NCBI GenBank assembly: GCA_902628375.1
Contig: CACOMS010000007.1
Coordinates: 1-52,840, forward strand
Length of the DNA: 52,840 bases
Direction: 5' to 3'
From: an uncultured SAR86 cluster bacterium
GTDB lineage: Bacteria; Pseudomonadota; Gammaproteobacteria; Magnimaribacterales; Magnimaribacteraceae
Position 1 is the stretch's first letter, and each line of letters opens with the position of its first letter. The notes below the pieces were generated by a model. The model worked only from the letters and a program-made list of their open reading frames with translations. It was not told the origin of the DNA and did not search any database. Below, piece by piece: positions 7,310-13,043 of this stretch. Made by a program: the position numbers and the translations under genes.

Positions 7310-7786
7310 TTATTTATGTTTAACAGAGATGATTTCGTATTCTTTTGTTCCTGCTTGAGTCTTGAATATAAAGATATCTCCTTCGATTTTACCAACTAAG
7401 GATCTTGAGAGAGGTGAATTTACTGAAATTTTACCTTTTGCTACATCAGCCTCATCTTCTCCTACAATCTGATATGTAACCCTATTGCCTTCTCCAGTAT
7501 CTTCTATCTCAACGGTTGTTCCAAATATAACTTTTCCCATAGGCTCAATGTTTTTTACGTCGATTACTTGAGAATCAGCTAGCTTAGATTCTATATCTTT
7601 AATTCTAGATTCTATTAAGCCTTGTTGTTCTTTAGCAGCATGATATTCAGCATTTTCCTTTAAATCTCCAAATTCTCTAGCTTCTGCTATGGCTTTTACT
7701 ACATCTGCTCTATCTTTAGTCTTGAGTTTTTTTAGTTCTTCCCTTAACAAAGATTCACCTAAAGGCGTCATTGGATATTTCGTCAT
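7310..7786 (-). CDS. greA: Transcription elongation factor GreA
   Basis: Rescues backtracked RNA polymerase by stimulating transcript cleavage. The 158-residue length is exactly typical. The N-terminal coiled coil carries the family pattern [17 protein letters not shown] and the acidic tip [15 protein letters not shown], whose Asp and Glu act in the secondary channel. The C-terminal FKBP-like domain follows from about residue 80. Its ATG overlaps the carB stop by 4 bases (ATGA), so translation is probably coupled to carB. carAB-greA is a conserved neighbourhood in pseudomonads. Confidence 0.97.
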
Positions 7787-10700
7787 ATTTTAAGTCTATC
7801 ATGAAGGGATTGCAGCTTCTCAACAGTCCAAGAATCCTTATTTCTAATTACCGAACAAACTGCTCTACCTCCTTCAATTGTTGTAGTGCAGTAAACTTTT
7901 TCTTCTAAGGCTGTTCGTCTAATAGAAGCTGAATCTATAATTGACTGTCTTCCTTCAGAAGTATTAATTACTAAATCTATTTCTCCATTCTTAATCATGT
8001 CAACTACATGAGGTCTTCCTTGGGCTACCTTCTTAACTACTTTTGCCGGTATATTTTTTTCCTTTATTATCTCTGCTGTTCCCCTTGTAGCTACAATTTC
8101 AAAACCAAGTTCATGAAACTCTTGAGATAATTCTGCTACAAGATCTCTATCAGAATGCCTCACACTAATAAAAACACACCCTTCAGTGGGGATTTTTTCT
8201 CCTGCTCCTAGTTCAGCTTTAGAATAGGCTTCAGCAAAACTTTTACCAATTCCCATAACCTCACCAGTGGACTTCATCTCTGGACCTAATATTGGATCAA
8301 CACCTTGGAATCTTGAAAAAGGTAAAACCGCTTCTTTAACAGAAAAATAAGGAGGAATTATTTCACTAGTAAATCCTTGATCAATTAGAGAAATGCCCGC
8401 CATGCATTTTGCTCCAATATCAGCTAAAGACCTTCCTATACACTTTGACACAAAGGGTATAGTTCGAGAGGCTCTAGGATTAACCTCAATCAAATAAAGA
8501 GTGCCTTGAAAATAAGCAAGTTGAACGTTTAGAAGACCAATAGCTTTAATTTCTTTCGCTATATTTTTAACCATGTCATTGATATCTGAAACTAGTTCCA
8601 GAGGTAGGCTATAAGGGGGTAAAGAACAGGCAGAATCTCCAGAATGAATACCAGCTTGCTCAATATGTTGCAATATCCCTCCAATGACAACATCCGTACC
8701 ATCTGTGACTGCTTCAACATCTATTTCAGTTGCCTGATTTAGAAAACTGTCTAATAAAACAGGACTGCTCTCGCTTGCTTGAACTGCATCTGTTAAATAA
8801 TCTTTTAAGTCTTTATCGTTATATACAATTTCCATAGCTCTTCCCCCTAAAACATAAGAAGGTCTCACTACGAGAGGATAGCCAATATCTTTCGATACAT
8901 TCATGGCTTCTTCCATATTTGTAGCTAACCCATTTGGAGGTTGCAGAAGATTCAATTTTTGTACGAATTCTTGAAATCTTCCTCTATCTTCAGCTAAATC
9001 GATAGAATCAGGTGAAGTTCCCCAAATTGGAACTCCATTTGCTTCTAATTCTCTCGCTAATTTTAAAGGGGTTTGTCCTCCATATTGAACGATTACGCCT
9101 TCTGGTTTCTCAATATCTATAATCGATAACACATCTTCAGTAGTTATAGGCTCAAAATACAATCTATCTGAAGTATCGTAATCAGTTGAGACAGTCTCTG
9201 GATTACAATTGACCATAATGGTTTCGTAACCAAGATCTTTCATTGCCATAGAGGCATGTACGCAACAATAATCAAATTCTATGCCTTGTCCTATTCTATT
9301 AGGGCCTCCCCCTAAAACTACGACTTTTTTATTTTTAGTAGGACGAGATTCACATTGAGATTCATAAGAGGAGTACATGTAAGCAGTAGAGGATTCAAAT
9401 TCTGCAGCACAAGTGTCCACTCTTTTATATACAGGCTTTATATTCAAAGAAAGTCTTTTCTTTCGAATAGATTCCTCTTCAGTATTAAGAAGACAAGCTA
9501 ATCTTTTATCAGAAAATCCATGGCATTTAAATTTGTACAAATTTTCTTCATTTAATGAATTAAGATCTAAATTTTTAATCTCTTCTTCTTCCGCAACTAA
9601 TTCTTGAATATGCGAAAGAAACCAAGGATCTACTTTAGAAAGTTCAAATATCTCCTCCAAGGAAAAATTTTGTCTAAACGCATCTGCTAGATACCACAAC
9701 CTATCTGGACTTGGTATTGAAACCCCGGTTTTCAGTACTTGAATTTCTTGCTCTTCTTCATTGAAAACTTCATTTAAACCATCTTTACCTATTTCCAAAC
9801 CTCTTATCGCTTTCTGAAAAGATTCTTTAAAGGTTCTTCCTATAGCCATAACCTCTCCAACAGATTTCATCTGAGTAGTTAAGACAGGTTCAGCTCCAGG
9901 AAATTTCTCAAAATTAAATCTAGGTATCTTAGTTACAACATAATCTATAGAGGGCTCAAAAGATGCGGGTATAACTCCTCCAGTTATATCATTCTCCAAC
10001 TCATCTAATGTATAACCTACGGCCAATTTCGCAGCTACTTTGGCTATAGGAAATCCTGTTGCCTTAGAAGCTAGGGCAGATGATCTTGAAACCCTAGGAT
10101 TCATCTCAATGACCAGCATCTCACCGTCTTCTGGGTTGATAGTGAATTGAACGTTTGATCCTCCTGTCTCGACTCCTATTTCCCTTAAAATAGCCATCGA
10201 AGCATTTCTCATCAATTGATATTCTTTATCGGTAAGAGTCTGGGCTGGTGCTACTGTTATGGAATCACCAGTATGAACTCCCATAGGGTCTAGGTTTTCA
10301 ATACTACAAACAATAATACAGTTGTCATTTTTATCTCTAACAACTTCCATTTCATATTCTTTCCAGCCACCTAAGAATTCATCAATAAATATTTCACTTG
10401 TTGGAGATAGATCAAAACCTCTTATGCAAATCTCTTCAAATTCTTCTACGTTGTAGGCAATTCCTCCTCCACCTCCACCCATAGTAAAATTTGGCCTCAA
10501 TACACAAGGGAATCCAATATCATCTAATATCTCTTTAGCTTCTTCTGCATTATGTGCTAACGCAGCTTTAGGAGTTCTTAAACCAATTTTTTCCATCGCA
10601 GCAGCAAATAAATCTCTGTCTTCTGCTTTATCTATAGCCTCCTTGGTAGCTCCAATCATTTCTATATCATGCTTTTTCAATATACCTTTGCTGTGAAGAT

Positions 10701-11001
10701 CTAATGCAGTGTTTAAGGCGGTTTGCCCTCCCATTGTTGGTAAGATTGCATCTGGTTTTTCCTTTTCTATAATTTTTTCTACAGTCTCCCAATGTATTGG
10801 TTCAATATAGGTGGAATCTGCCATAGAAGGGTCAGTCATTATGGTTGCAGGATTTGAATTAACTAAAATCACTCTGAATCCATCTTCTTTCAGAGCCTTA
10901 CAAGCTTGAGCTCCAGAATAATCAAACTCACATGCCTGCCCTATTACAATTGGTCCAGCCCCTAAGATTAAGATTGAATTAATATCTTTTCTTTTAGGCA
11001 A
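7783..11001 (-). CDS. carB: Carbamoyl phosphate synthase large chain
   Basis: Makes carbamoyl phosphate from bicarbonate, ammonia (delivered by CarA) and two ATP, feeding pyrimidine and arginine synthesis. 1072 residues matches E. coli. Two homologous ATP-grasp halves are visible: the first opens with [20 protein letters not shown] and has a glycine-rich loop near 173; the second opens with [18 protein letters not shown] near residue 560. Both have metal-binding E-x-N-P-R motifs ([10 protein letters not shown] and EVNPRASRT). The last ~130 residues form the MGS-like allosteric domain that binds UMP and ornithine in E. coli. It overlaps carA by 8 bases and greA by 4. Confidence 0.98.
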
Positions 11002-12112
11002 CTCTGTTCTCCATAAGATCTATAAATTTGTCAAAAAGCCCTTTTATGTCATGAGGTCCTGGGCTTGCCTCAGGGTGTCCTTGAAAACTAAATGCTGGTA
11101 AGGTTTTGTGGCTAATTCCTTGTATAGAACCATCAAAAAGTGATTTATGAGTGATCTCAACATCCTCATCTAGGGAATCTTCATCAACCATGAAGCCATG
11201 ATTCTGACTTGTTATAAAAACTTTCTGAGTTTGTAGATCTTGAACTGGATGATTGGCGCCATGATGACCAAATTTCATTTTTGATGTTTTAGCCCCCAAG
11301 GCTAAAGCTAATAACTGATGCCCCAGGCAAATTCCAAACACTGGTATGTTTGCTTGAATTACTTGCTTAATTGTTTCAATAGCGTAATCACATGGTTCAG
11401 GATCACCAGGTCCATTTGAGAGGAAGACTCCATCCGGCTTATGAGAAAGGATTTGTTCAATGGTTGTTTTAGCAGGAACAACTTCAATCTCACAGCCTCT
11501 ATTATGGAGAATCCTTAAAATATTCTTCTTTACACCAAAATCCAATGCAACAACTTTATATTTTGTAGATCTGCTGTCTTCTCTCCATACACCGTCTTTC
11601 CAAGAATAATTTCTACTAGTAGTAACTTCTTTAGCTAAATCTAATCCTGATAAACCAGGAAAGCTATTTGCTAAATCAAACCCTTTATCTTTATTTGGAT
11701 TTTTTCCAGTGATTATTGCACCCGGTTGGGCTCCTTTCTCTCTAATAATATTTACTAATTTCCTAGTATCAATATTAGAAATGGCTACTGTTTTATTATT
11801 TATTAAAAATTCACTTAAATTTGTTTCATTTCGCCAACTACTTAAAGTAGAAGGTAGATCTTTAATAATTAATCCAGAGCACCAAACTTTTTCTGATTCA
11901 AAATCTTCAATATTTGTTCCGGTATTACCTATATGAGGATAAGTTAAAGTAACAATTTGCTGGCAATAAGATGGGTCTGTAAGAATTTCTTGATAGCCAG
12001 TCATTGCTGTATTAAATACAACTTCACCACATGATTCCCCCTGAAACCCTATGCTTTTTCCAGAGAAAGTAGTGCCATCTTGTAATACTAATATGGCGTT
12101 CGAAGACTTCAT
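10994..12112 (-). CDS. carA: Carbamoyl phosphate synthase small chain (glutaminase)
   Basis: Hydrolyses glutamine and channels ammonia to CarB. 372 residues. The N-terminal CPSase small domain (about 1-150) begins [18 protein letters not shown]; the C-terminal class I glutamine amidotransferase (about 185-372) has the nucleophile Cys262 in FGICLGHQL and the His346/Glu348 pair in GHPEASPG. It is the first gene of a minus-strand run that continues without a large gap to infB. The 169-base region upstream is shared with divergent map and contains a promoter, a hairpin and a candidate attenuator terminator. No strong ribosome binding site is visible before the ATG at 12112. Confidence 0.98.
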
Positions 12113-12152
12113 TTCTAATTAGAACTGATTAAAATAGATGTAATTTTTAGGT

Positions 12153-12189
12153 AAAAAAAAAGCGAACCAGAGATTATTTCTAGGTCCGC
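12153..12189 (-). terminator. Candidate attenuator terminator in the carA leader
   Basis: On the minus strand, GCGGACC...GGTTCGC forms a stem (12162-12189) with one mismatch (A-C at 12165/12186) and one bulged base (12182). An inner 3-bp stem and a 7-base loop follow, and then nine U residues (12153-12161). It points towards carA and lies between the predicted carA promoter (12226-12254) and the carA ATG at 12112. On the plus strand no comparable T-run follows. Its position, about 40 bases before carA, is what a transcription attenuator would have. Confidence 0.72.
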
Positions 12190-12197
12190 ATTTATGT

Positions 12198-12221
12198 TTT
12201 TAATGCTTATTGGCATTAAAA
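12198..12221. promoter_or_regulatory. Perfect inverted repeat at the carA transcript start
   Basis: TTTTAATGC and GCATTAAAA form a perfect 9-bp inverted repeat around a 6-base centre. In the predicted carA transcript (start near 12219) it would fold as a hairpin at the very 5' end. Its GCATT arm could instead pair with AATGC just before the attenuator stem. As DNA it could equally be an operator for a dimeric regulator controlling carA and map. It does not look like an E. coli ArgR box. Function unproven. Confidence 0.55.
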
Positions 12222-12225
12222 CCAC

Positions 12226-12254
12226 ACTATAATAAACCTACATTAATATGTCTA
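12226..12254 (-). promoter_or_regulatory. Sigma-70-type promoter for carAB
   Basis: On the minus strand, -35 TAGACA (12249-12254) and -10 TATAGT (12226-12231) are 17 bases apart, each matching five of six consensus bases. The predicted start is near 12219, giving a leader of about 107 bases before carA. The -10 overlaps a plus-strand TATAAT (12228-12233) that would serve map, so the two divergent promoters cannot be occupied at once. Confidence 0.7.
12228..12233 (+). promoter_or_regulatory. Candidate -10 box for map
   Basis: A perfect TATAAT lies 48 bases before the map ATG. The -35 side is weak: TTATTG at 12207-12212 with a 15-base spacer is the best I see, and it lies inside the inverted repeat at 12198-12221. 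The element overlaps the carA -10 on the other strand. Confidence 0.45.
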
Positions 12255-12281
12255 TTTAATTCAACTAAAATAAACAAAAAA

Positions 12282-13043
12282 ATGATAAAAACATTATCTG
12301 ATATTAAAGAAATGAGAGTAGCTGGAAAATTGGCTGCTGAAGTTCTTGAAATGATCACTCCCTTTGTGAAGCCAGGCATTTCTACTGGTGAATTAGATTC
12401 GATTTGCCACGATTACATTATTAATGAACAAAACGCCATTCCTGCTAATGTTGGATATAGAGGATTCGAGAAAACAATTTGCAGCAGTCTTAATCAAGTT
12501 GTTTGTCATGGCATACCAGACTACAAAAGAATTCTTAAAAATGGTGATATTCTGAATATAGATGTAACAGTGCTAAAAGATGGCTGGCATGGCGATACCT
12601 CTAAAATGTTCTTAGTGGGCAAATGTAAACCTCATAATGAAAGGTTAGTGAAAATAACTCAAGAATGCCTCTATAAGGCAATAGAAATAGTTAAACCAGG
12701 AGCATATCTAGGTGATATAGGTCATGTGATCCAAAAACATGCGGAAAAAAATTACTATTCTGTAGTTGAAGAATATTGTGGCCATGGCATAGGAAAGGTC
12801 TATCATGAAGATCCACAGATACTTCATTATGGTGAGCAAGGAACTGGTCTACAGCTTAAAGAAGGCATGTGCTTTACCATCGAACCAATGATAAATTTGG
12901 GTTCTAAGTTTACTAAGTCTTTAAGTGATGGATGGACAGTTGAAACAAAAGATGGAAGAAATTCAGCCCAATGGGAACATACCCTAGCCGTAACTTCAGA
13001 TGGGTGTGAAGTTTTAACAAAAAGAACTGAAGAGACTTTTTAG
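12282..13043 (+). CDS. map: Methionine aminopeptidase, type I
   Basis: Removes the initiator methionine from nascent proteins. The ATG at 12282 gives 253 residues and a start, MIKTLSDIKEMRVAGKLAAE, that aligns with family N-termini. A TTG 72 bases upstream would add 24 residues with no family counterpart and would overlap the promoter. The metal ligands are in DVTVLKDGWHGDTSKMF (two Asp), CGHGIGKVYHEDP (His), FTIEPM (Glu) and the C-terminal AQWEHTLAV (Glu). map followed by glnD is the E. coli order; in E. coli rpsB-tsf lies on the other side, whereas here carA does. Confidence 0.97.
   Translation: MIKTLSDIKEMRVAGKLAAEVLEMITPFVKPGISTGELDSICHDYIINEQNAIPANVGYRGFEKTICSSLNQVVCHGIPDYKRILKNGDILNIDVTVLKDGWHGDTSKMFLVGKCKPHNERLVKITQECLYKAIEIVKPGAYLGDIGHVIQKHAEKNYYSVVEEYCGHGIGKVYHEDPQILHYGEQGTGLQLKEGMCFTIEPMINLGSKFTKSLSDGWTVETKDGRNSAQWEHTLAVTSDGCEVLTKRTEETF

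Follow-up and report, generated by a model that had tools for sequence, protein, structure and literature searches.

The DNA between map and carA in a SAR86-cluster gammaproteobacterium is, on balance, best explained as a whole by a pyrimidine-sensing, ribosome-mediated attenuator of carAB, or of pyrF-carAB in part of the same family (f1). By the window we mean the whole stretch of 52,840 nucleotides that was analysed, in which the leader region occupies positions 12254-12113 of the minus strand. Sequence comparison among SAR86 relatives shows a promoter with its spacing, a 5'-terminal hairpin, a terminator and an open leader frame. We are confident that the region is an attenuator in general and consider pyrimidine its probable signal; a switch between transcription start sites has at best an even chance of being the sensor.

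Promoter, hairpin and terminator before carA

The gene for the small subunit of carbamoyl-phosphate synthase, carA (10994..12112, minus strand; TIGR01368, 496 bits), is followed by carB for the large subunit (7783..11001, minus strand; NF003671, 1711 bits) and heads a long same-strand row of carA, carB, greA, rlmE, ftsH, glmM, tpiA, two tRNAs, rimP and nusA. On the promoter side lies map, encoding a type I methionyl aminopeptidase (12282..13043, plus strand; TIGR00500, 326 bits), and since this neighbour is divergent, the terminator described below serves the car promoter. The minus strand at 12225-12110 folds at -23.6 kcal/mol (z = -4.0), with 0/200 shuffles equally good, and none of the Rfam cis-regulatory families reached its gathering score, the best weak matches being Phe_leader (16 bits of 55) and greA (13.4 of 60). 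By a simple rule, a Shine-Dalgarno-like tetramer stands upstream in only 12 of the 37 window genes; starts lacking one may be common among them, and because of this count the missing ribosome site before carA is unusable as evidence.

The car promoter consists of a -35 hexamer TAGACA (12254-12249, minus strand) and a -10 hexamer TATAGT (12231-12226, minus strand), separated by 17 nt and identified from a promoter scan and from 60 SAR86 leaders (29 of f1, 15 of f2 and 16 of f3). As the scan of a 601-base region gave 2 promoter-like sites against 2.8 in shuffles, a promoter-like match alone is not evidence. All 60 leaders carry T[AG]GACN at the -35 position and a spacer of 17, where the search pattern allowed 16-18. 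An ATG follows 9 nt past the -10 in 60/60 leaders, a spacing that the pattern required; locus L118, which the pattern missed at offset 6, also has it by eye. Since the pattern demanded TAATG, an ATG 9 nt past the -10, a spacer of 16-18 nt and a T at each of offsets 6 and 8, the counts for the start region are partly by construction. Dropped from the set were L024, whose contig ends in the leader, L118, which fails the start pattern, the duplicates L090 and L096, and L116, which lies in the wrong place.

Past the -10 stands TTTTAA (12216..12221, minus strand; offsets 5-10), a conserved stretch taken as the initially transcribed region, within which the transcription start or starts are predicted. 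Every one of the 60 leaders has A at offset 9 and pyrimidines from 6 to 8, with 6, 8 and 9 fixed by the pattern; offset 7, which was free, is T in 48 leaders and C in 12. According to the available part of PMC5730371, transcription usually starts 7 nt past the -10, and purines are strongly preferred. Sought elsewhere in four genomes, the start motif was absent except for one extra site each in G005 and G036, both of which lead into frames of only 8-9 codons. On the plus strand, a consensus TATAAT directed toward map (12226-12232) overlaps the carA -10 and may serve map as its own -10. This shared -10 is kept in 29/29 f1, 12/16 f3 and 0/15 f2 leaders, and it resembles the bidirectional promoters described for E. 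coli and Salmonella.

Folding, pair counts and alignment point to a 5'-terminal hairpin that holds the leader ATG, TTTTAATGC-CAATAA-GCATTAAAA (12198..12221, minus strand), in which the arms at 12221-12213 and 12206-12198 form a perfect 9-bp inverted repeat. Counted by offset from the -10, pairing is found at offsets 10, 9 and 8 in 51/51 leaders, at 7 in 50 of 51 (TA 35, CG 10, TG 5), at 6 in 46, at 5 in 40 and at 4 in 17; this loss of pairing near offset 4, taken with the usual start position, suggests that the hairpin ends approximately where the RNA should begin. In the joint alignment of f1 and f3, hairpin column 7-26 is UA in 18, UG in 3 and CG in 8 of 30 distinct rows, and the covariation score of the hairpin was matched by 0/500 shuffles, although the tool warns that relatedness can also cause such a score. 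A mismatch stands opposite the U of the AUG in 13 of the 30 distinct hairpins, and the f2 hairpin pairs are nearly invariant, without covariation, and say little either way. RNAalifold did not pick the first hairpin on the f1 alignment, and the covariance model R1 (see below) has another small helix there; we think that this miss is due to the mismatch and to a gap placed in the A run. In the f2 loci L133-L142, a second kept leader stretch, ATTTTAGCTCATTAAA, was noticed by eye, and its TTTTA could possibly pair with the 3' arm of the 5' hairpin, which would give two exclusive small hairpins in f2.

Folding and comparison also identify an intrinsic terminator (12153..12189, minus strand), whose stem pairs GCGGACC (12189-12183) with GGTTCGC (12168-12162) and is followed by nine T (12161-12153), 40 nt before the carA ATG at 12112. 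A simple terminator scan, with a loop limit of 8, gave none. Terminators were detected in 27/29 f1, 16/16 f3 and 0/15 f2 leaders, and the T-tract is 8 or 9 long in all 45 f1 and f3 leaders. The stem sequences differ between the families, GCGAAC in f1 versus ACGCG or ATCGCGA in f3. Both sides of a terminator pair changed in 7/16 f3 leaders (UA 9, AU 7), as did both sides of the outer pair in 2/23 of f1 (GC 21, AU 2), and covariation over the whole f1 terminator does not beat column shuffles, of which 98/500 reach its score.

An earlier note on this DNA had described the promoter (TAGACA, 17, TATAGT), the 9-bp repeat and the stem-loop with nine T 40 nt before carA, and all of these lie where it placed them; the overlap that it saw between the -10 boxes of carA and map is likewise borne out by the plus-strand TATAAT. 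As for the conservation and covariation that it proposed to look for in relatives, both hairpins are kept and column 7-26 of the first covaries, but covariation over the f1 terminator as a whole does not exceed that of shuffles. Its mutually exclusive fold, in which GCATT would pair with AATGC, did not survive the comparison, being possible in 1/29 f1 leaders, namely the window's own.

The leader frame and its distribution

From the ATG at 12216, a leader ORF of 33 codons (12115..12216, minus strand) runs through the terminator to a TAG ending at 12115, 2 nt before carA. Whether this frame is a leader ORF or chance had previously been left open; comparative frame counts indicate that it is real, since 55/60 leaders keep it open to a point no more than 15 nt from the next gene, against 2 and 3 for the other two frames, or, counted per genus, 16/17 against 0 and 0. 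By family, it is open in 28/29 leaders of f1, 15/15 of f2 and 12/12 of f3 without genus g13. In g13 it is open in 0/4, the frame ending after 15 codons inside the terminator in 4/4, where a stopping ribosome would still cover part of the stem. The frame of L118, which was excluded from the counts, has 8 codons. In f2 the frame's stop overlaps the carA start in 15/15 loci, mostly as TAATG, TAGTG, TGATG or ATGA. Shuffled tails give a per-sequence chance of 0.36-0.50 for an open frame, and because this is not small, the case for the leader frame rests on many lineages; judged across them, the frame is not chance.

The leader pN/pS is about 0.9 in f1 and f2, and in f2 it is not clearly below that of the other frames. 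With the peptide sequence thus unconserved, the act of translation seems to matter, and the amino acids appear largely free. Arg codons number 0-2 per leader in f1 and f2 and are absent from 19/29 f1, 7/15 f2 and 6/16 f3 leaders, and no conserved run of regulatory Arg codons was found in the leaders of these three families. Attenuation through arginine codons was rejected, as Arg codons are not enriched and the peptide is not conserved.

When the leader and its surroundings served as a query, 53 of 101 genomes (the window's own included) gave a match at E <= 0.001. The covariance model R1, built from 23 distinct leaders, found one copy in 29 of the 35 genomes of f1 and weaker matches in f3, and among 274 genomes of the class it matched only G000 and G036, both of the window's order. 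Leaders with the exact core TATAGTG-N3-TTTTAATGCC in named genomes come from SAR86-cluster members or from records titled only Gammaproteobacteria. In f2 and f3, carA is likewise divergent from map and lies behind a related leader. At the level of sequence, relatives conserve the promoter, the 5' hairpin and the terminator ahead of carA or pyrF-carA, and the pair counts favour both hairpins. Two kinds of match were set aside: a weak f2 match of R1 in G151 (L116), which is not at carA, and pattern-scan hits outside SAR86, which are likely chance and show no promoter plus hairpin by eye.

The wider class was sampled through 69 carA upstream regions of other Gammaproteobacteria (L195-L263), drawn from 109 genomes with a match. 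An intrinsic terminator was detected between the promoter side and carA in 34/69 of these; in the first 29 regions it was found in 18, against 9/145 in the shuffled control. A promoter of the form T[AG]GAC-N17..19-TANANT occurs in 31/69 regions, compared with 3/1380 shuffles, at a median of 99 nt before carA. Being found in about half of the sampled regions, the car promoter-terminator arrangement occurs widely and belongs to a known kind, and car attenuation may be general in Gammaproteobacteria. An ATG stands 8-10 nt past that -10 in only 1/31, and an ATG plus hairpin at the predicted RNA 5' end is, as far as these sequences go, the SAR86 variant of the arrangement. By eye, L209 from a non-SAR86 gammaproteobacterium has an ATG 8 nt past TATAAT, opening a frame of 12 codons whose first residues, MNTAL, resemble the MQTAL of SAR86 f3. 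Our literature searches found no report of a SAR86 car leader.

Proposed pyrimidine sensing and its alternatives

Among the 29 distinct f1 leaders, 11 precede carA and 18 precede pyrF, and pyrF was followed directly by carA in 6/6 f1 loci read further (L126-L131). Genus g6 and part of g4 have pyrF between leader and carA. The window's own genome carries pyrF on a different contig, where this leader does not precede it. By eye, five genomes showed no such leader ahead of pyrB, and five showed none ahead of a pyrF located elsewhere. Judged by position, a pyrF gene under the leader speaks for pyrimidine control. The earlier note had proposed a pyrimidine- or arginine-responsive attenuator ahead of the long row that reaches nusA: the attenuator gains support from the conserved hairpins with some covariation, and the pyrimidine link from pyrF in 18/29 f1 leaders, but arginine finds none in the 0-2 Arg codons of f1 and f2.

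We infer that the terminator is blocked when the leader is translated and that pyrimidines are sensed at initiation. Transcription would begin a few bases before, or at, the leader AUG, which would then lie no more than about 5 bases from the RNA 5' end. A ribosome on the leader frame would cover the terminator hairpin and let the polymerase continue, and would finish close to the next gene's start codon; from an untranslated leader the terminator would form, and transcription would stop at 12161-12153. When UTP or CTP is plentiful, initiation at the pyrimidines of offsets 5-8, or slippage on the T run, would yield either RNAs whose full 5' hairpin buries the AUG or abortive RNAs. When pyrimidines are scarce, a start at the A of offset 9 or 10 would leave the RNA almost leaderless and its hairpin weak, and this RNA would be translated and escape termination. 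For 27 leaders the modelled hairpin energy was -4.7 to -9.9 kcal/mol with a start at offset 5 and -1.1 to -3.8 kcal/mol with a start at offset 9. For f2, which has no terminator, we would expect the shared start region and frame to work by coupling to carA translation. We tentatively suggest that two E. coli devices may be combined here in fewer than 110 bases, a pyrC-like start-site switch and leader translation that decides attenuation (f1, f3) or coupling (f2).

Kinetic attenuation of the pyrBI type would work differently: low UTP would slow the polymerase in the leader, the ribosome would catch up and block the terminator, and the 5' hairpin would serve only for pausing or stabilisation. 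The leader frame does pass through the terminator in most leaders with its sequence free, as if only translation counts, and tight coupling across the pyrL leader peptide is described as preventing the terminator (PMC5021804, in its available part). However, the spacer between hairpin and terminator is 5-9 nt long and A-rich (A 0.62, T 0.24 in f1), with TTT in 1/29 f1 and 6/16 f3 leaders, so that a U-rich pause stretch ahead of the terminator is lacking, and f2 has no terminator to block; we regard this explanation as unlikely. Smaller still is the chance we give to the first inverted repeat being a DNA operator for a repressor at the transcription start, with frame and terminator secondary. 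In its favour are the near-palindromic form of the repeat and an overlap with the downstream edge of the promoter, but the distance between the TAATG and CATTA arms varies (8 in f1, 7 in f3, 19 in f2), G-U pairs are tolerated in the hairpin, and pairing ends at the transcript's expected 5' end. Besides, TAATGC-N4..6-GCATTA has only 1-3 copies per genome in 8 genomes, with the car site present in all 8 and 4 non-car sites spread over 3 of them.

Equally improbable, in our view, is UTP-dependent reiterative transcription alone, as at E. coli carAB P1, in which slippage on TTTT at high UTP would abort transcription and hairpin and frame would only couple translation. The start GTTTTAAT / ATTTTAAT resembles that of E. 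coli carAB P1, given as GUUUGC in the available part of PMC6245113, and TTT lies within offsets 3-8 in 53/60 leaders; yet the T run is missing in 7/60, all of them f3, and terminator and hairpin pairing would be left unexplained. A constitutive leader without sensing, in which the frame would couple translation to carA and the terminator only lower the basal level, would agree with f4, where 8/8 carA loci are by eye without such a leader, but is very hard to credit given that the start region is conserved across three families, suggesting control worth keeping, that the terminator is kept despite different stem sequences, and that pyrF has been placed under the leader.

If the two devices are combined as suggested, the region would be a protein-free sensor of pyrimidines, with NTP supply read at the first nucleotide and signalled through the ribosome. 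SAR86 bacteria are abundant in the ocean and have small genomes, in which a switch made of promoter, RNA and ribosome would show cheap pyrimidine control, and its families offer a natural series with hairpin, frame and terminator, with hairpin and frame only, and with nothing.

Comparison with known systems

Start-site switching is known from E. coli pyrC, where a start at U or C needs that nucleotide, the strength of the 5' hairpin depends on the start, and the ribosome site that the hairpin occludes belongs to the enzyme gene. The SAR86 sequence layout fits this device, with pyrimidines at offsets 6-8, a purine at 9 and a start-dependent 5' hairpin, whereas the SAR86 hairpin would hide the AUG of a leader frame and not the enzyme gene's ribosome site. 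Attenuators of the pyrBI/pyrL type carry a U-rich, UTP-dependent pause stretch before the terminator. The leader ORF through the terminator, another feature of this type, is found in f1 and f3 except genus g13. With E. coli pyrBI/pyrL, the SAR86 leader shares a leader frame at an intrinsic terminator, a pyrimidine operon and the role proposed for translation, which averts termination in E. coli (PMC5021804, as far as its available text goes). In contrast, the SAR86 leader lacks the U-rich pause stretch, leaves little or no 5' UTR for the leader frame, and has its terminator directly after the 5' hairpin.

A U run just past the start, as in SAR86, also marks E. coli carAB P1 and the reiterative starts of pyrBI, codBA and upp in the accessible portion of PMC6245113. 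The contrast that the earlier note drew with E. coli carAB holds, since the same portion of that source places car control at initiation, with DNA-binding proteins, and names no leader attenuator; however, pyrimidine attenuation of carAB with a leader peptide has been described in Pseudomonas (PMC4997734, in part). The carA motif RNA of Polynucleobacter is likewise located upstream of carA, but it is an extended imperfect hairpin beside the carA ribosome site and belongs to Betaproteobacteria, according to the part of PMC8632094 at hand.

In Pseudomonas carAB (P. aeruginosa, and by prediction P. syringae), the pyrimidine response requires a stem-loop between promoter and carA, and the carA promoter region gives rise to a leader peptide, as stated in the available sections of PMC4997734. 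SAR86 also has a stem-loop between the car promoter and carA as well as a leader peptide frame. The title of Kwon 1994, on the Pseudomonas carAB leader, reportedly states that 'no untranslated region exists'. Set against the Pseudomonas leader, of which the source at hand gives a partial picture, the SAR86 features are the small 5'-end hairpin with the AUG, the frame ending at the next gene, the terminator-less members of f2 and the control of pyrF in part of f1. Our best reading is that the SAR86 leader is a compact variant of the car promoter-plus-terminator arrangement found in other Gammaproteobacteria and described in Pseudomonas.
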